Assembly (NCBI GenBank): GCA_009837395.1
Contig: VXTP01000006.1
Span: 349,165 to 413,164, forward strand
Reading direction: 5' to 3'
DNA: 64,000 nucleotides
Origin: Gemmatimonadota bacterium
GTDB lineage: Bacteria; JAAXHH01
This document shows, piece after piece, positions 2,815-57,832 of the stretch (positions within the stretch are counted from its first letter, which is position 1; the number at the start of each line of letters is the position of its first letter). Below the pieces are notes generated by a model. The model did not search any database. It worked only from the letters and a program-made list of their open reading frames with translations, and had not been told where the DNA came from. The position numbers and the translations under genes are program-made.

Positions 2815-3591
2815 TTGAAACTCGAAGGTCGGGTCGCTATCGTCACGGGCGGCAGTTCCGGTATTGGCCGGGGTATATCCATCGAGCTGGCCAGGGAAGG
2901 GGCCCACGTCGTGGTGTGCGACCTCGTCGAACGGCCGCGGCCGGGCAAGTACCACGACCAGGACGTGACGACGCCCACCGTAGAGGCCTTGACCGAGATA
3001 GGTGCCGACGGCCTCTTCGTGCAGGCGGACGTATCGGACGAATCAGCCGTAAACCGACTGGTCGACCGGACGCTGGAAGCCTATGGCGGCCTGGACATCC
3101 TGGTCAACAACGCGGGCATTTTTACCCTGGGCGACAGCCAGACGACCCCGGTCGAGACGTGGGACCGCGTCATGGGCGTGAACTTGCGGGCCCTGTTCCT
3201 GACTACGCGTGCCGCCGTGCCGCACCTGAAGGAATCCCGCGCGGGCCGGATCATCAACATCGCTTCCGTGCACGCCTTTCACGGCGGCGGCGGTCCGGCG
3301 TACGCGCCGGCCAAGGCCGGTGTCGTCAACCTCACGCGGGACACGGCGGTCGAACTGGCGTCGCACGGCATAACCGCCAATACGATCTGTCCGGGCTATA
3401 TCGAGACGCCCATCCAGGACTACCTGACCGAGGAGCAGGTCGCCGAGGCGCTGGAAAAGACTCCCCTGCCCCGGCTGGGGCTGCCGAAGGACATCGGCCG
3501 GGCCTGCGTGTTCTTCGCGTCGGACGACGCCGAGTGGATCACCGGAACGGCCCTGCCCGTGGACGGCGGCTGGCTGGCCCCGATCTGGTAG
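2815..3591 (+). CDS. Short-chain dehydrogenase/reductase (SDR) family oxidoreductase
   Basis: A 258-residue classical SDR, an NAD(P)-dependent oxidoreductase of the Rossmann fold. Visible motifs are the cofactor loop TGGSSGIG (11-18), NNAG (98-101), catalytic Ser151, and Tyr163/Lys167 in the YxxxK motif. The C-terminal signature ITGTALPVDGGW is typical. The start is TTG, supported by an AGAGGA ribosome site about 5 nt upstream; no in-frame ATG fits. The extreme 3' end including the stop codon is copied twice more downstream as a 35-bp tandem repeat (see repeat entry). Substrate unknown; sugar or polyol dehydrogenase is plausible from the enolase-superfamily neighbour. Confidence 0.9.
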   Translation: MKLEGRVAIVTGGSSGIGRGISIELAREGAHVVVCDLVERPRPGKYHDQDVTTPTVEALTEIGADGLFVQADVSDESAVNRLVDRTLEAYGGLDILVNNAGIFTLGDSQTTPVETWDRVMGVNLRALFLTTRAAVPHLKESRAGRIINIASVHAFHGGGGPAYAPAKAGVVNLTRDTAVELASHGITANTICPGYIETPIQDYLTEEQVAEALEKTPLPRLGLPKDIGRACVFFASDDAEWITGTALPVDGGWLAPIW

Positions 3592-3662
3592 GCTGGCGGG
3601 TCGCCTGGCTGGTCCCGATCTGGTAGAAAGGTGGGTCAGCTGGCTTGCCCCGATCTGGTAGG
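3569..3662 (+). repeat. Three-copy 35-bp tandem repeat at the SDR 3' end
   Basis: The segment CTGGCTGGCCCCGATCTGG followed by TAG, which encodes the last residues and stop of the SDR, recurs with small changes. Its TAG triplets end at 3591, 3626 and 3661, an exact 35-bp period. Because 35 is not a multiple of three, the extra copies do not extend the protein. This looks like a recent slipped-strand duplication. Confidence 0.85.
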
Positions 3663-3686
3663 CGGGCCCGACAGGTCTTAGTTCAA

Positions 3687-7677: not shown

Positions 7678-8988
7678 ATGAACCCGATACGAACCCTCCA
7701 ATGTCTCCTGCTGGCCTGCGGGCTGGCTTGGCCGGGCGCGGACGCCACGGCATCCCGGGTCGACGTCATCTCGCTGACCGGCCCGATCGGTCCGGTGAGC
7801 GTCCAGCACGTTTCCGCCGCGATCGCAAGGGCGGAAGACGACCGGTCGGAATGCCTGGTGATCATGCTCGATACGCCAGGCGGGCTCCTCGAGTCCACCC
7901 AGTTGATCATCAAGGACATGCTCGCGTCCAACGTGCCGGTCGTGGTCTACGTGGCGCCCAGCGGCGCGGGCGCCGGGTCTGCGGGCGTGTTCATTACCAT
8001 GAGCGCCCACGTCGCCGCCATGGCGCCGGGCACCAGTATCGGCGCGGCCAGCCCGGTGGGCATCGGCGGCGCGGTCGCGGACTCGACCATGCAGGAGAAG
8101 ATAGAGAACTTCTCCGTGAGCTATATCCGGTCCATCGCCGACAAGCACGGCCGTAACGCGGACTGGGCGGAACAGGCGGTGCGGAAGGCCGAGGCCCTGA
8201 CCGACCGGGAAGCCGTGGAGCAGAACGTCGTGGACCTGAACGTCGCCACGCTGGACTCCCTGCTGGTCAGGATCGACGGCACAGTGGTCGAAGTCCGCGA
8301 AGGCAGCCGGGTATTGCGCACGAAGGACGCCGAGGTGAGCATACGTGAAATGAGCTGGCATCACCGGGTACTGAACGTGCTCTCCAATCCCAATATAGCC
8401 TATCTCCTGATGATGCTCGGGTTTTACGGGCTCATCTACGAGTTCATCAACCCCGGGGCTATTTTCCCCGGCGTCGTGGGCGGCATGTGCATTGTCATCG
8501 GGCTTTTCGCCCTGCAGACGCTGCCCATCAACTACGCGGGGCTTCTGCTGCTCCTGCTCGGATTGGGATTGTTCGTCACGGAACTGTTCGTGGCCAGCGG
8601 GGGCCTGCTGACCCTCGGCGGCGCCGTTTCCTTCACGATCGGTTCGATGATGCTCATCGATTCGCCCGATCCCTATCTCCGCATTTCCCTGTATGCCATC
8701 ATTCCGGCCGTGATTTCGACCGCGGCATTCACGCTCTTCGCCGTGGGCTACGCGCTGAAGGCCCAGAAGCGGCGCACGACCACGGGCAGCCAGGGACTGA
8801 TCGGCGAGACGGGCCGCGCGCACACGGCCGTGGACAGCCGGAGCGGCAAAGTATTCGTCCACGGCGAATACTGGTTCGCCACGAGCGAAACGCCTGTCAA
8901 GCCCGAAACGCCGGTTCGGGTGGTGGAGATCAATGGTCTGCGACTCAAGGTGGAAAGCCTGGACTCAGGTAAGGATGCAACGCAATAA
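7678..8988 (+). CDS. NfeD family membrane-bound serine protease
   Basis: A 436-residue long-form NfeD (STOPP) protein. It has an N-terminal signal peptide (about 1-26), a ClpP-class serine protease domain (about 27-230), several transmembrane helices (about 235-365) and a C-terminal OB-fold NfeD domain (about 370-436). The catalytic pair fits the archaeal PH1510 enzyme: Ser101 in [10 protein letters not shown] and Lys141 in the following helix. Such proteases cleave the C-terminal hydrophobic region of partner stomatins, and a slipin gene follows at once (13 nt). This supports a membrane-microdomain quality-control role. Confidence 0.92.
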
Positions 8989-9904: not shown

Positions 9905-9984
9905 CTTACGAGATCGCCTGATCGGATTCCGACTAAATCGGTCAACACGCAATGTTTCCAATGACCCGCAGAAAGGACGATGCG

Positions 9985-10683
9985 ATGACCGATTTACAGG
10001 GAGTAACACCGATCAGGGACTGGCCGGAGGACGAGAAGCCCAGGGAGCGTCTGCTCAAGTACGGCATACACACGCTGTCGGATACGGAATTGATCGCGCT
10101 GCTGCTGCGCACGGGAAACGGCGCGGGCGGCAGGGACGTCATTGAAATCTCGCGGGCACTCCTGCAGCACTTCGGCGGCCTGCGCCACCTCGCCACCCGG
10201 GAACTGAGCGAATTGTGCCAGGTGTCGGGCGTCGGACCCGTCAAGGCCGCCCAGATCGCCTCCGCCATCGAAATCGGCCGTCGCCTCGAAGCGCAGGACA
10301 TGGAACAGAAGTCCTTCGTTTCGAGCACGGACGTGGCGCGCTACTTCATGCCGAGGCTTCGGGACCTGCGCAAGGAGATCTTCATGGTCCTGATGCTCGA
10401 CGCGCGCAACTGCCTGATCCGCGGCGTGACCGTGTCGGTGGGCAGTCTTACGGCCAGCATCGTCCATCCCCGCGAGGTGTTCAAACCTGCCATCCTCGAT
10501 TCGGCCGCCTCGGTGATCTTCGTTCACAACCATCCCAGCGGCGATCCCACGCCGAGCCAGGACGACCTCAAGATCACGGCCCAGCTCGTCGACGCGGGCC
10601 AGATGATCGATATCAAGGTGCTGGATCACATCATCATCGGCCGAAAGTCCTTTACCAGCCTGGCCGGCAAGGGTTTAATATAG
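9985..10683 (+). CDS. radC: RadC family protein (JAMM/MPN+ domain)
   Basis: A 232-residue RadC-family protein. An N-terminal helix-hairpin-helix-like region (about 20-90, with LCQVSGVGPVKAAQI) precedes a JAMM metalloprotease-like domain with the zinc motif HNHPSGDPTPSQDD. The family was named for DNA repair, but that role is disputed and the molecular function is unsettled. In-frame ATGs exist at 9952, 9961 and 9985; the last is chosen because AAAGGA sits 7 nt upstream and the family usually starts near here. It is followed by a 9-bp-unit repeat tract. Confidence 0.9.
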   Translation: MTDLQGVTPIRDWPEDEKPRERLLKYGIHTLSDTELIALLLRTGNGAGGRDVIEISRALLQHFGGLRHLATRELSELCQVSGVGPVKAAQIASAIEIGRRLEAQDMEQKSFVSSTDVARYFMPRLRDLRKEIFMVLMLDARNCLIRGVTVSVGSLTASIVHPREVFKPAILDSAASVIFVHNHPSGDPTPSQDDLKITAQLVDAGQMIDIKVLDHIIIGRKSFTSLAGKGLI

Positions 10684-10731
10684 CGGTCCGCCTGGCCAGC
10701 CTGGTCCGCCTGGCCAGCCTGGTCAATCTGG
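10684..10731 (+). repeat. 9-bp-unit degenerate tandem repeat after radC
   Basis: Directly after the radC stop, the tract alternates TGGTCCGCC and TGGCCAGCC about five times. On the other strand the unit reads GGCGGACCA. Related 9-bp units occur in the lpxC-fabZ 3' end (26511-26556) and upstream of the PhyH gene at 57661-57740. Confidence 0.75.
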
Positions 10732-25034: not shown

Positions 25035-26570
25035 ATGTTCAAACGCCAGCGTACCGTCAAATCTCCGGCGTCCATCAAGGGCATCGGCCTGCATACCGGA
25101 GGACGGGCGACGATTACGTTCAAGCCCGGTACCGTGAACGACGGGATCCGGTTCGTGCGCGTCGACCATCCCGACAGGCTGGAAATCCCGGCGGACATAG
25201 ACTACGTGATCGATACGACCCGGGGGACGAACCTGGCGCGGGATGGCGTCCGGATCCACACCGTGGAGCACGTCCTGGCCGCCGTCGCGGGCCTGGGCCT
25301 GGACAATATCCGGATCGAACTGGACGGGGACGAGCCGCCGATCTGCGACGGCAGCGCCATTCCCTTCGTGAACGCGTTGATTGAAGCGGGCATCGTCGAA
25401 CAGGACGCCCCCAGGGAATACCTGGAACTGGACAACCCCGTGCTGTATTCGGAGCGGGAGAACGGCCTGCTTAAGGAACTCGTCGTCATGCCCTCCGACG
25501 ATTTCCATCTCACCTACATGGTCGACTACCAGAAATCCAACCTGGCCAGCCAGCACACCGTGCTCTATTCCCTGGAGGACGAGTTCGTCACCGAGTTCGC
25601 CCCGGCGCGGACGTGGACCTTCCTGAGCGATGTGAAGGCCCTGCGCGAAAGGGGACTGATCAAGGGCGGCAGCCTGGAAAGCGCGGTGGTCATCGCGGAC
25701 ATGGACCTGTCCGACGAGGAACTGGACGAGTTGAAGGATCTGTTCGGCGTGGAGGACAGGGTGGTGATCGGTGAGAACGGGATCGTGGGCACCCAGCCGC
25801 TGCGGTTCGACAACGAACCCTGCCGGCACAAGGCCCTCGACCTGATCGGCGACCTTGCCCTGCTCGGAGCGCCGCTCAGGGCGCAGGTGTTCGGCGCGCG
25901 GTCCTCCCATGCCGCCAACGTAGAACTCGTGCGAAGGATCCGCGGCGCGTGCGTGAAGAAGAAGCCGGAAACGGGGGATGTCGATCCGTCTGCGTCTGCC
26001 CCGCCAGCGTCTGGTTCGCCTGTTGCGTCTGCTACACCCGCAGCACCTGCACCTGTGGCACCCGCGCCTGAACCCGAAGCGGTCCTCGACATCGAGGATA
26101 TCCTGCGCATCCTCCCCCACCGGTATCCCTTATTGCTCATCGACCGGGTGATCCACATGGAACCGGGGAAGCGGGTCACCGCGTTGAAGAACGTGACCAT
26201 CAACGAGCCTTTCTTCGCGGGTCATTTCCCCGGCCATCCCGTCATGCCGGGCGTCTTGATCGTCGAGGCCATGGCGCAGGCGGGCGGCCTGCTGCTGCTC
26301 AACACGATCGATGAACCGAAGAGCAAGATGGCGTATTTCATGGGCATCGACCATGCCCGCTTCCGGCGACTGGTAAAACCTGGCGACCAGCTCCGCTTCG
26401 AGTTGGAGACGGTCCGGATGCGCATGCACGCCTGCAAGATGGAAGGCAAGGCTTACGTGAACGATGAACTGGTCGCCGAAGCCACCCTCATGGCCATGAT
26501 CACGGATCGCGCGGGCCAGGCCGACCAGGCGGACAGGGCGGACCAGGCTGACCGGGAGGCCTCACAGTGA
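25035..26570 (+). CDS. lpxC: LpxC-FabZ fusion: UDP-3-O-acyl-GlcNAc deacetylase / 3-hydroxyacyl-ACP dehydratase
   Basis: A 511-residue bifunctional protein. Residues 1-310 are LpxC, the zinc deacetylase committing to lipid A synthesis: His79, and His265/Asp269 in RHKALDL, fit the metal site. Residues 348-490 are FabZ, with [21 protein letters not shown] (397-406) and catalytic Glu411. A Pro/Ala/Ser linker (about 312-347) joins them. The last about 24 residues are a repetitive Gln/Ala/Asp tail ([15 protein letters not shown]), encoded by a 9-bp repeat. This fusion is known in Bacteroidetes and other FCB bacteria and couples lipid A with fatty-acid synthesis. It overlaps lpxA by 4 nt. Confidence 0.95.
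26511..26556 (+). repeat. 9-bp tandem repeat within the lpxC-fabZ 3' end
   Basis: Five degenerate copies of GCGGACCAG (for example GCGGACAGG, GCGGACCAG, GCTGACCGG) encode the (Q)AD(Q/R) tail. The period of 9 keeps the frame open. The unit matches the reverse complement of the tract after radC. Confidence 0.8.
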
Positions 26571-38446: not shown

Positions 38447-40717
38447 CTACCTGCTGGCCGCGCTCCCGCTTTCCACCTTCTTCAACGCGTCCAGCACCAG
38501 GCCGGGCGTGAGCAATTCCGGAAGGATCTCCGGTACGGAATCCGGACCGCCCGTATACAGCACGTAAAGCGGGACACTGTTGCGACCGAACTCGGCCAGT
38601 GCCCGCGTGATCTCGGGGTCCCTCGACGTCCAGTCGGCCTGGACCGGGACGACGCCCAGGGTCTCGAACTGTTCGACCACGCGGCTGTCGCTCAGCGCCA
38701 CGCGCTTGTTGACCTGGCAGCTCAGGCACCAGGCCGCGGTGAAGTCCACGAAAACCGACTTTCCCGAAGTGCGCAGGTCCTGCACCAGCTGCCGGGAGAA
38801 GGGTTCCCACTCCAGCCCCGCGCTGTATGTCGAAGCCGCGGCGGTTCGATCGGCCTTGGCCGGGGCCGGCACCTGGCTCAGTACGGTTACCATACTCGCG
38901 ATGATGATCACCGCGGCGGCAGCACGGGCAGATATCCTGGAACGGCTCCCGGAAGCGATGCCTCCCCAGCGGCCGAGAATCCAGCTTCCAAGGGCCACCA
39001 GCACCAGCAGGACCATCACCAGGGCGACCAGGTTGGGGTCTGTCTGGAGGTTCAGCACCCAGAGCAGCCAGACCACGGTGGCCATCATGAGGAAGCCCAT
39101 GAACTGCTTGAAGGATTCCATCCACGCGCCGGGTTTCGGCACGTACCGCAGCAGGGCGGGAACGGATGACAGGGTCAGGTAGGGCAGGGCCATGCCCAGG
39201 CCGAGGAACCCAAAGATCGCCAGGGACTGCGCCGCCGACTGCGTCAGGGCGTATCCCAGGGCCACGCCCATGAACGGCGCGGTGCACGGCGTGGCCACGA
39301 CCGTGGCCAGGACGCCGCTCAGGAAGGATCCGCCGAGTCCGCTGCCCGAATCCATTCGCCCGCCGAGACCGACCAGTGACGTGCCGATCTCGAAGACGCC
39401 AAAGAGGCTCAGGCCGAACATGAAGATGATGACTGACAGGATGACGATGAAGACCGGCGACTGGAGCTGGAATCCCCAGCCCAATTGCTCTCCCCCGGCC
39501 CGCAGGGCGATCAGGACGGCCGCCAGCGCGAGAAAGGAGACCAGGACGCCCGCGGTGAAGACCAGGCCGTGCCGGCGGGCCTTTGCCGGGTCGTCGCCCG
39601 CCTGGTGGATGAACCCGAGTACCTTGATGGACAGCACGGGGAGGACGCAGGGCATCAGGTTGAGGATCAGGCCGCCGATGAGGGCGAAGAGCAGGGCCTG
39701 CCACAGACCGGACACGAGATCGCCGGAAATCGCCGTGGCAGCAAGACCGGAAACCGCCGAAACGTTGCCGGAACCAGGCGAACCAGGCGAACCGATCGCA
39801 GCGACCGCGGCCGGCAGCACATCCGCATAGACGGCGCTCACGGCCAGGGCGCGCTCCGATCCGGGGCCGCGCCATCCATCCGCGGACACCAGCACGCCCG
39901 CGATCTGTTCCGGCCTGCTCGTGTAAAAGCCCGACCGGCGCATCGTCAAAAGGTACCCGGTCTCCGTCTTCTCCAGTTTCTGGGGAGATATGTAGTCGAT
40001 CAGGTCAGCGTTGTAGGGGTAGAACTCCGCGCCGGTGAGGTTTCCAGGGAACCATTCTGGCGGTGCGGCGTGCAGCGCCACAGTGGAATCGGAAATAGCG
40101 GCCTCGACGTGCCATCCGGGGACCGGGACCGGAAGTTGCTCCCGGGTGCGGGCAAAGAGATCGGTCCATCGCTCATCGGCCTGGGGCGCCTCCGTGGAAA
40201 CGGGCAGCGTCACCTGGTATCCGGATTCTCCCGGGAGACAGATTTCCGCGCAGACCAGCCAGGAGGCAAAGGCCCCGACGTCGACCGTCCCGCCGGTCTC
40301 CAGGTCGGCCGGAGGCGTGATTTCCACGAGCAGGAGCGTCTCGCCTTCGTACCCGTAGCTGGCCAGGATGTCGAGTTCGATCTTCTGGGGATAGGGCCAG
40401 TTGATCTCACCGGCCTGGAACCCATCGGGCAGCGCCCAGTGTATCTGCGTGGGGAGACCCGAATCGGCCGGGTTGCGCCAGTAGGTGTGCCAGTGCTCGT
40501 CCATCTTCATCCGCAGGCCGGCCCAGAAAGGCTGCCCGGGCTTGACGGACGTCGTCTCCACGACCAGTTCGGTCTCCATATAATCGGTGCGGACCGCCTG
40601 ACCGTGTACGGACCAGGCGCCGGTGCCGAAGGCGAACAGGATCGCGAGCGACAGTAATATGGCGCGCATTGGTTTCATAGTGCGCATTGATCTCATGGCG
40701 TGATGAGTTGATTTCAT
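38447..40717 (-). CDS. dsbD: Thiol:disulfide interchange protein DsbD
   Basis: A 756-residue DsbD-family protein that passes electrons from cytoplasmic thioredoxin across the inner membrane. A signal peptide (about 14-40) and N-terminal DsbD-alpha-like domain (to about 310) are followed by eight or so membrane helices (about 330-600) and a C-terminal thioredoxin domain with CLSC at 664-667. Several ATGs lie in the first 20 codons (MKSTHHAMRSMRTMKPMRA), none with a clear ribosome site; 40678 is an alternative start. It is cotranscribed with the redoxin gene. A Gly/Ser/Pro stretch encoded by a 9-bp repeat (39767-39793) lies before the membrane domain. Confidence 0.9.
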   Translation of the reverse strand: MKSTHHAMRSMRTMKPMRAILLSLAILFAFGTGAWSVHGQAVRTDYMETELVVETTSVKPGQPFWAGLRMKMDEHWHTYWRNPADSGLPTQIHWALPDGFQAGEINWPYPQKIELDILASYGYEGETLLLVEITPPADLETGGTVDVGAFASWLVCAEICLPGESGYQVTLPVSTEAPQADERWTDLFARTREQLPVPVPGWHVEAAISDSTVALHAAPPEWFPGNLTGAEFYPYNADLIDYISPQKLEKTETGYLLTMRRSGFYTSRPEQIAGVLVSADGWRGPGSERALAVSAVYADVLPAAVAAIGSPGSPGSGNVSAVSGLAATAISGDLVSGLWQALLFALIGGLILNLMPCVLPVLSIKVLGFIHQAGDDPAKARRHGLVFTAGVLVSFLALAAVLIALRAGGEQLGWGFQLQSPVFIVILSVIIFMFGLSLFGVFEIGTSLVGLGGRMDSGSGLGGSFLSGVLATVVATPCTAPFMGVALGYALTQSAAQSLAIFGFLGLGMALPYLTLSSVPALLRYVPKPGAWMESFKQFMGFLMMATVVWLLWVLNLQTDPNLVALVMVLLVLVALGSWILGRWGGIASGSRSRISARAAAAVIIIASMVTVLSQVPAPAKADRTAAASTYSAGLEWEPFSRQLVQDLRTSGKSVFVDFTAAWCLSCQVNKRVALSDSRVVEQFETLGVVPVQADWTSRDPEITRALAEFGRNSVPLYVLYTGGPDSVPEILPELLTPGLVLDALKKVESGSAASR

Positions 40718-44465: not shown

Positions 44466-46723
44466 CTACGGCTGCATACGCTCGTCCGCAGGACCTTCAC
44501 GTACCTCTTTCCTGAAGGGCAAAAGGCCCGGATAGGGCGTACGGTACCGGTACAGCAGGTAGAGTGCGAAGAAAAACACGGGCAGGTTCAGCAGGAGCAG
44601 CTCCGGAGGCCAGGTCTCGATCTCGACGCCATAGCGGTAGAGGAGGAAGGCGAAGGCGTTGTTGCCCGCGTGAAGCAGCATGCACGGGAATATCGAGCCG
44701 GAGAGGACCGCTACGGTGGTGATAACCACGCCCAGGTAGGTCGTCGGAATGATGCGGAACAGGGCCTGGTGGAACAATCCGAAGATCACGCCGACCACCA
44801 GGATGAGCACGACCGGTCTCAGCCGGCGGTGCAGCCCGTGAAGCAGCAGGCCTCGAAAGGCCATTTCTTCCACGATCCCGGGCGTAATGGCCATCATGAG
44901 CATGATCTGCCACAGGGGAAAGTCCTCCGGTAACAGCTCGCTGGCGAACTGCTCCAGCATTTCCTCCGGGAAGGGCAGGAATACGCTGGACAGTTCCACG
45001 ACGAACATCCCGGTCAACAGGGTCGATGGCACCAGGAGCAGCACCGCCAGCCATACCTGGGGCCGCACCGGGCGGATCGCCAGGGCCTGGCGCCAGTCGA
45101 GCCGGTGTACCCGGATCATGAGCAGCGAGCCCAGGAAGAAGATCCCGAACATGTTGAAGGCCCACTGCCCCTCGAGCCGGGTCAGCGCATCTACATTCGA
45201 AGGGGCGATGATGACGATGGCCCACATCCCGAGGAACCACAGGAGCACCCGCCGGGGAAACAGCGCGGCGCCGCCCGCCAGGTCCGCCTCGTCCATGTCC
45301 TGCGCGGTGACGAGCCTTTCCTTGTCCAGCATGCGGGACGACCATCTGAGCATCAGGAAGGCGGCAAGCAACATGGATGCGCAGGCTACAAGGAGCATCG
45401 GGATGTCGTAATGGCCGACCATGATTTCCCGTACGGCCACGCTGACGTTCGCGACCGGCACGACGGCGATCAGTGAGCGCAGGGATACCGCCGGGAGCAA
45501 CCCCGCCGCCGTCAGGACCATGAGTCCGAGAAAAACCGGCAGGAGGTAGAGCTGCGTCTCCTTGTAGGTCTTCGCATAGGCCGAGATCAGCAGCAGGAGG
45601 GACGACACCACGATGGCCACGGGGATGTACATGACGAAAAGCACCAGCACGGCGACGGGCGATACCTCGATATCCAGTTCCGCGGGAAGCTCGATCAGCC
45701 CGAGTCCGAGGTACACGAAGAGGTTCCCCGCCTGCGCCAGGGTGATGAAGAGCGCGACGGACAGGATCGTCATTTGCTTGGCGGCGATGATCTCGATCCG
45801 GCGGACCGACGTGGTCAGGAGGGTTTCGAGGGAACCCCGCTCCTTCTCGCCCGCGACACTGTCCATGGCCGCAACCGACGCGCCGGTGAGCGTGAGAAAA
45901 ACAAGCAGCAGCGGAAGCAGTCGTCCGAAGTAGAACCCCGCCGCCTGTTCCGGCGTGGCCACGTCCACCCTTGAAAGCCGGATGACTTCTTCGGGGTCCG
46001 ACTCGAGCCCGATTACGCGCAGCGCTTCGGCGCGGTCCTGTTTCCTCGCGTCCACCAACCGATCCACCAGCAGGGCGCTGCCCCTTCTGGAATCGTCCCG
46101 GTTGGCGCGATAGTAGACCCTGACCACGGGGACCCCCGGATACCGCTCGTCCGCTACGGTCACCACCACGCCGGCCTCATCCTCGGGTTCCGTAGTACCG
46201 GCCTCATCACCGGGTTCCGTGGTGTCGGCCGCGGCGCGGGCCAGGTCGAGCGAGTCGGCTTCGGATCCGGTCAGGGCTTCCAGGTAGAAATCCAGGTCGC
46301 CGGATGCCAGGCTCGAATCGGGCACTGCGGCCTCCACCTCCAGAAATGAGGCAGGCTGCCGGTCGTCATCCCCGGTATCGGCGGGCTCCGCGTTTCCGGC
46401 CGGACCGCCGTCCTCGGCCGGATCCCCGGTTTCGGCCGGATCCCCATTCTCGACCAGATCCACGTTCTCGGCCGGACCGTCCGCCGCGCGCAATTCGCCT
46501 CTTGCGATGAGCGTCCGGACGGAGTCTGCGTAGGCGCCCACCACGGCGTAGCGATACGTCGTCGTATCCTGCTGTTCCTGGCGCCATTCGTTCATGAACT
46601 TGAAACCGAAGAGGATCGCCGGCAGAACGAGGAGCGGCAGGAGAATGCTCAGTACCACCGTCCGGCGGTCCCGCAGCAGCATCCGCATTTCGTTCCTGTA
46701 CAGCAGTCCGATCGTTGCGCGGT

Positions 46724-57660: not shown

Positions 57661-57740
57661 GATGCGGACGAAGCGGACTATGCGGACCATGCTGACCGCA
57701 TGCTTGCGCCGCGTCGCGGACCGAGGTCTACGCGGACCAA
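57661..57740 (+). repeat. 9-bp-unit degenerate repeat tract
   Basis: Consecutive units read ATGCGGACG, AAGCGGACT, ATGCGGACC, ATGCTGACC, then further GCGGACC copies with looser spacing. The core GCGGACC is the same as in the lpxC-fabZ tail and, inverted, after radC. Confidence 0.7.
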
Positions 57741-57832
57741 GTTCTATATATAAGGACTCCTGCCGGACACGTCAACTACCAGATTGGCGTCTTCGCTACC
57801 GCGGCAAAAAACCTGTGCGAGCCACGCGCATA

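Follow-up and report, generated by a model that had tools for sequence, protein, structure and literature searches.

The window analyzed here, a stretch of 64,000 nucleotides that forms part of contig C36 in an assembly of 3.80 Mb and 47 contigs (genome G000), harbors short tandem arrays of a 9-bp unit with the consensus GCGGACCAG, which is variable mainly at positions 3, 5, and 8. A five-unit intergenic array of GCGGACCAG/GCTGGCCAG units lies on the minus strand at 10687..10731, where the forward strand reads TCCGCCTGG CCAGCCTGG TCCGCCTGG CCAGCCTGG TCAATCTGG; the orientation in which this array is given is CTGGTCCGC/CTGGCCAGC. These are the inverted units that an earlier note on this DNA had placed after radC. 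The radC gene itself is an ORF on the plus strand (9952..10683; PF04002 RadC, E 5.4e-45) whose TAG stop codon at 10681-10683 is followed by CGG and then by the array, leaving a gap of 3 bp, and a further 24 bp separate the array from the GTG of the following gene, which encodes a Gfo/Idh-type oxidoreductase. At this site, TRF reported a repeat at 10685-10724 with a period of 18 and a value of 100%. A second array of five units, likewise anticipated in the earlier note, is present on the plus strand at 26511..26555, where it encodes the C-terminal tail of an LpxC-FabZ fusion protein in the frame Ala-Asp-Gln/Arg. The fusion gene (25035..26570, plus strand) carries the array outside the FabA-like domain (residues 360-483), and its stop codon overlaps the GTG of the following gene, which we take to be lpxA-like.

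A shorter array, GAACCAGGC repeated 2.6 times, was detected by TRF at 39771..39793 (plus strand) within the DsbD gene. Translated from the minus strand, it reads Gly-Ser-Pro and forms a linker between DsbD_N and DsbD_TM. The array and the linker had both been proposed and are borne out, but the 3'-proximal position proposed with them is not, as the array corresponds to about residues 296-303 of 743. The weakest member comprises four loose units (57664..57699, plus strand) between divergent genes upstream of a PhyH gene, together with a second loose pair at 57715..57746; the units claimed for this site are present, but they are loose and poorly conserved in relatives. A further match at 8158-8184 was rejected as a family member; this look-alike is conserved coding sequence whose length does not vary among the aligned relatives. 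Tandem repeats with other units also occur in the window, at 3570-3667 (35 bp × 2.8) and at 46368-46476 (18 bp × 6.1).

Within the window, only tandem counts separated from chance. Doublets with up to three mismatches numbered 8 against 0.24 expected and were reached by 0/100 shuffles, and the single 9-mer, with 4 occurrences against 1.35 expected (reached by 4/100 shuffles), constitutes weak evidence. The comparison was extended to 1,128,856 bp of the genome and 40 copies in which codons were shuffled within genes. Single 9-mers numbered 75 versus 36.5 in the shuffled copies (maximum 50), two units with up to two mismatches 20 versus 1.35 (maximum 5), three units with up to six mismatches 33 versus 1.5 (maximum 4), and three units with up to four mismatches 17 versus 0. 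The motif is thus more frequent than codon use and G+C content predict, and the suggestion of a genome-wide dispersed family holds. Since codon shuffling destroys any tandem repeat, controls with permuted units are important. Among 60 permuted units of equal composition examined on C36 and C24, one matched the 12 occurrences of the real unit at up to six mismatches (median 2), and none reached its 5 occurrences at up to four mismatches (best 2). Doublets of the best permuted unit with up to one mismatch occurred 0-3 times per genome in 16 genomes, compared with 7-59 for the real unit per genome of the genus. A looser version of the test, with 12 permuted units and two units at up to three mismatches, gave no separation (real unit 21, controls 0-28). 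A control with the mirror image has no value here, since GCGGACCAG reversed is a rotation of itself and an array read backwards is its own array in another phase.

In order to detect repeats without a preset motif, TRF was applied to a sample of G000 covering about 1.15 Mb of the 3.80 Mb. Of 114 period-9 arrays, 42 had a consensus that differed from the unit at no more than two positions, where 8.3 would be expected from the 9-mers of the genome (p 3e-19); the corresponding figures were 16/36 in G006 and 11/38 in G001. On C36 and C24 alone, TRF (score 60) together with a lag scan did not single out the family, and periods 9 and 18 were only mildly prominent because the arrays have diverged. 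Lag-18 self-matches were the commonest among lags 4-30 in this two-contig sample. Contigs C12, C19, C21, C22, and C31 were picked for having matches, so their densities are not genome averages. The counts of placement, frame, variability, gene ends, flanks, and codon shuffling leave out 15 collagen-like matches on C19 beyond 50 kb, and the tripeptide and proline-codon counts leave out the genes of that region. The look-alike at 8158-8184 and its copy in G006 were left out of the variability, gene-end, and flank tests and were kept in the placement, frame, codon-shuffle, and length-comparison counts. A chance origin from high G+C content and codon use has a negligible probability and is refuted by the permuted-unit, permuted-doublet, and codon-shuffle tests: the single 9-mer is enriched merely twofold, but arrays exceed all 40 codon-shuffled copies as well as the permuted doublet, and none were found in the four other genomes of the phylum that were examined.

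The phylum search covered 16 genomes. Doublets with up to one mismatch were present in all 12 genomes of the genus, at the per-genome counts given above with overlapping matches included, and in none of the other four (two of the same family and two of the same order). Outside the order, 2 of 80 genomes showed a match (two in G040 and one in G066). Among the genomes examined, the family is limited to the genus. Across four compared genes, the two sister genera reach only 65-67% identity to G000, and their G+C content differs from it at the loci examined. Base composition may account for part of the absence from the other phylum genomes, as loci from three of these four have a G+C content of 0.39-0.65. 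The radC protein is 92-99% identical to those of seven MAGs, five labeled Candidatus Latescibacterota and two Gemmatimonadetes, and isolate names suggest sponge sources for some of these relatives. No 9-bp repeat family of Latescibacterota was described among the literature matches listed. The available part of a paper on sponge-associated Latescibacterota mentions eukaryotic-like repeat domains and CRISPR and contains neither the word "tandem" nor the word "intergenic" (PMC12993501).

Across about 2.0 Mb of three genomes, 45 of 53 arrays are located inside predicted genes and 8 between them. With a coding fraction of 0.88, the genic share about equals the coding share, and genes are not avoided. 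Genes were predicted by a simple codon-usage caller that recovers radC, LpxC-FabZ, the gene following it, and DsbD, with some starts differing from the longest ORF; the 53 arrays were picked by similarity to the unit, a choice that the class counts carry, and two of them are the coding look-alike. The enrichment at gene ends that the earlier note had suggested testing was not supported, as 11 of 33 arrays lie within 100 bp of a gene end compared with 7.5 expected (p 0.11), and 3' ends alone gave 6 versus 5.0 expected for the same 33 arrays. Between co-directional genes, arrays seemed mostly antisense, but such sites are too few for a claim. Array density per kb is higher on the short, match-selected contigs C12, C21, C22, and C31 than on the long C24 and C36, a difference that may reflect assembly breaks, variable regions, or the choice of contigs itself.

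The arrays occur in frame in unrelated conserved genes and form tails and linkers of the products, as had been suggested from the window. Host proteins were named by their best Pfam or PDB match, and finer names are those we presume. In a Pfam scan of 24 array-bearing proteins, we read the coordinates as placing 17 arrays beyond a domain or at its boundary and 6 inside one, with 1 unclear; the scan of G000 array genes omitted the look-alike and C22:56310-56642 and included DsbD. In DnaA, the array lies between the N-terminal and ATPase domains, in topoisomerase I (TopA) it forms the C-terminal tail, and in a Mur ligase, presumably MurE, it lies at the N-terminus. It precedes the domain of a uracil-DNA glycosylase and forms the tail of a nucleoside phosphorylase. 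In an aminotransferase nearest to alanine aminotransferase, it occupies a segment that the alignment to 3tcm leaves out. Further hosts are a CLC-type channel, an ExbB-type protein, a HupE-type membrane protein, aminopeptidase P, two sulfatases, and an HrpA-like helicase.

Orthologous sites were compared in G000, G006, and G001 over about 413-424 kb. Among 54 comparisons at 27 array sites, with sites counted from more than one side, 46 differ in length and 8 do not. The differences are multiples of nine in 38 cases, multiples of three only in 2, and neither in 6. The eight that are not multiples of nine come from the region upstream of PhyH, radC seen from G006, the HupE-type tail, and one G006 site, and flank alignment error may lie behind part of them. 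In the order G000, G006, and G001, the array measures 54, 72, and 36 bp in the FabZ tail, 36, 72, and 99 bp in the aminotransferase, and 27, 63, and 36 bp at an intergenic site. As this last array changes in 9-bp steps between species, the period is a property of the DNA rather than a result of coding. The earlier idea that a length of nine keeps frames open is correct but incomplete for the same reason. Units differ by 2.39 mismatches within arrays and 2.92 between arrays, a greater likeness within arrays that would be expected from local slippage. In G001, the aminotransferase array on C9 (183346 in the joined stretch) is now an 18-bp higher-order repeat coding GGPGAH, which indicates that dimers can take over.

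Site occupancy also varies among the 12 genomes of the genus. The site 3' of radC is filled in seven and empty in five, with the array starting at the same base in six of the seven filled genomes and its start degraded in G006. Its presence is patchy on a four-gene tree with some weak branches (one at 0.26), a pattern that calls for multiple losses or else for G008 to have gained the array independently. The FabZ-tail array is present in all 10 genomes whose contig reaches it, the contigs of G005 and G009 breaking earlier, and TopA tails are repeat-like by eye in 12/12, with only about two units in G003. This conservation of the FabZ and TopA tails exceeds what pure neutrality needs. An in-frame TAG in one unit of the G004 FabZ-tail array (G004:C1:138967-139473) hints that part of the tail is dispensable. 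By eye, repeats in the DnaA linker are clear in seven species, are decayed or doubtful in G001, G008, and G011, and are absent from G005 and G009. An array-coded tail terminates the HupE-type protein of G006 and G001, and that of G000 lacks it.

A DNA-level role, in which the unit would be a putative protein-binding or hairpin-forming site for regulation or chromosome organization, can be given very little credence. Cores of GGNCC and CCNGG return at 9-bp intervals, and the GCGGACCGG form folds better on its strand than shuffled sequences (z −2.15; 4/200 as good), but its complement folds no better than shuffles (z 0.06) and the consensus unit does not on either strand (z −0.74 and 1.01). Moreover, most arrays are genic, at no fixed place, and their orientation varies. 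Very improbable as well is an element of the REP/RAYT, MITE, or RPE type, transposed or mobilized by a transposase, of which the arrays would be the visible part. The patchy filling of the radC site with its largely shared start base, and the dispersed, genus-limited character of the family, would fit such an element. Against this, the 150-bp flanks of 33 arrays, 66 in all, gave only two pairs of cross matches, both joining arrays on C12 that lie about 1 kb from each other, and flanks of the 33 arrays share nothing between distant loci that would mark a longer element around the 9-bp units. The Y1 transposase PF01797, the sole transposase family searched for, was absent in 5/5 genomes of the genus (it is present in G012 and G015), and radC shows no clear duplication of the target. 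Unit order shared between loci amounted to 2 versus 1.76 and was reached by 583/1000 shuffles. Shared heterogeneous doublets, taken as a sign of block copying between loci, were not in excess. Together, the flank, transposase, unit-order, and folding results weaken both the mobile-element and the structural readings.

An active, sequence-specific process that writes the 9-bp unit at new sites, by templated addition or by copying between loci, also appears quite unlikely; under it, essential proteins such as DnaA and topoisomerase I would keep gaining linkers and tails of a set composition.

The remaining alternative is convergence at the protein level, in which the genus favors low-complexity Ala-Asp-Gln and Gly-Pro-Gly linkers and the DNA repeat merely reflects the favored codons. 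Of 45 genic arrays, 35 are in sense orientation, comprising 24 in the ADQ frame, 10 in the GPG frame, and 1 in the third sense frame, and 10 are antisense in three phases (6, 3, and 1). The dominance of the sense orientation and of ADQ as the commonest reading indicates that protein-level selection also shapes the set of arrays. ADQ, ADR, AGQ, AGR, and GGP are additionally among the ten commonest exact tandem tripeptides, and the FabZ and TopA tails are kept across the genus. Yet all six readings occur, two of them only once, and the unit is also found outside genes, at radC and at the second intergenic site with its 9-bp steps. Variability likewise fails to track the wobble positions of the ADQ frame: positions 5 and 8 rank within the top three for variability in each of the four classes (ADQ, GPG, antisense, and intergenic), and in the ADQ frame both are second codon positions. 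For intergenic units, variability peaks at positions 3, 5, and 8, and the same three lead in the ADQ and antisense classes; the GPG class alone has a quiet position 3, which there opens a glycine codon.

Proline codon usage also argues against convergence. In Gly-Pro repeats picked at the protein level, the rare codon CCA serves 16 of 34 prolines compared with 1,349 of 31,194 overall (p 2e-13), a result based on 11 stretches that include orthologs and are therefore not all independent, with collagen-like genes left out. The fraction is 7/17 in G000 alone and 16/60 (p 4e-9) when three collagen-like genes are included. The genome-wide share of CCA depends on the gene set, at 4.3% in called genes and 9.6% in the training ORFs of the caller. 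Considering these results, convergence as the origin of the repeat is unlikely, and the frame spread, the position variability, and the use of CCA point to a repeat that is in the first place a unit of DNA and in the second place filtered by the protein. None of the six frames of the unit contains a stop codon, a property shared by about 61% of random 9-mers of like composition.

The family is therefore probably a genus-specific dispersed minisatellite in which slippage changes array length and the tolerance of the proteins acts as a filter. Its short tandem arrays sit at many unrelated sites, genic and intergenic, that are kept between species while their length differs, and the step size suggests that they lengthen and shorten by replication slippage. 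Arrays in genes would survive since the unit is a multiple of three and lacks stop codons in any frame; they seem to fall mostly in linkers, loops, or tails, where Ala-Asp-Gln/Arg is likely the best tolerated reading. The arrays probably have no single encoded function, the protein inserts being tolerated and some perhaps co-opted as flexible linkers. The motif may have come to its many sites by spread in the ancestor of the genus followed by local homogenization, or by repeated local birth favored by this sequence. The 9-bp repeat reported in the earlier note is confirmed as real, and the interpretation given there is partly supported. With twelve related genomes that show filled, empty, and length-differing sites, the family allows one to ask directly how units originate at new sites, at what rate essential proteins alter their linkers and tails, and where in a protein new sequence is accepted.

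Dispersed short tandem repeat families are known from other bacteria, including the heptamer STRR sequences of cyanobacteria. The published bacterial families compared here are described as mainly intergenic, whereas the 9-bp family lies mostly in the coding sequence of conserved genes. GGGNATC repeats of Xanthomonas and Nostoc are reported to be over-represented in non-coding regions and under-represented in genes, with G-rich repeats of this type forming quadruplexes (PMC4692102). The 9-bp family resembles the GGGNATC and STRR families in having one unit in dispersed short tandem arrays of variable number next to genes of general metabolism, and it differs in unit length (9 versus 7 bp) and in its predominantly genic placement, with only the 8 of 53 arrays intergenic. 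TAACTGA direct repeats occur in Beggiatoaceae, cyanobacteria, and Bacteroidetes; in a Beggiatoaceae genome they lie mostly just upstream of start codons, with a stop in every forward frame, they fall within or overlap 25 proteins, mainly at the protein ends, and a regulatory role was proposed (PMC4679880). Both families disperse one short unit as direct repeats, and the TAACTGA repeats have a genic minority, mostly at protein peripheries; unlike the heptamer, the 9-bp unit is stop-free, mostly intragenic, and often found in internal linkers.

Rickettsia palindromic elements are about 150 bp long, lie in frame in genes, and encode a conserved peptide (PMC10969869). They share with the 9-bp family the presence of repetitive DNA in frame within unrelated metabolic genes, and they differ from it in that nothing was found beyond the 9-bp units and several reading frames are used. 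Unlike palindromic elements of this kind, the consensus unit lacks better-than-shuffle folding, the GCGGACCGG form folding on one strand, and unlike the REP/RAYT system, the family lacks the Y1-type transposase in the five genomes tested. The 9-bp family has the anatomy of the GGGNATC and TAACTGA families and the placement of the Rickettsia elements. Its 9-bp period and its GPG/GPP readings also resemble collagen-like Gly-X-Y repeats, but the family occurs in several frames and at intergenic sites. Collagen-like Gly-X-Y repeats are protein repeats with a 9-bp period and a single open frame. Such repeats are themselves present in the genus. The region G000:C19:55132-67189 (loci L076 and L077) contains collagen-like Gly-Pro-Ala 9-bp repeats that match the unit loosely and were excluded from the counts. 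Finally, a collagen-like Gly-X-Y protein is encoded from G000:C36:216401 onward (L041), with orthologs in G006 and G001, and its repeat number varies between species.
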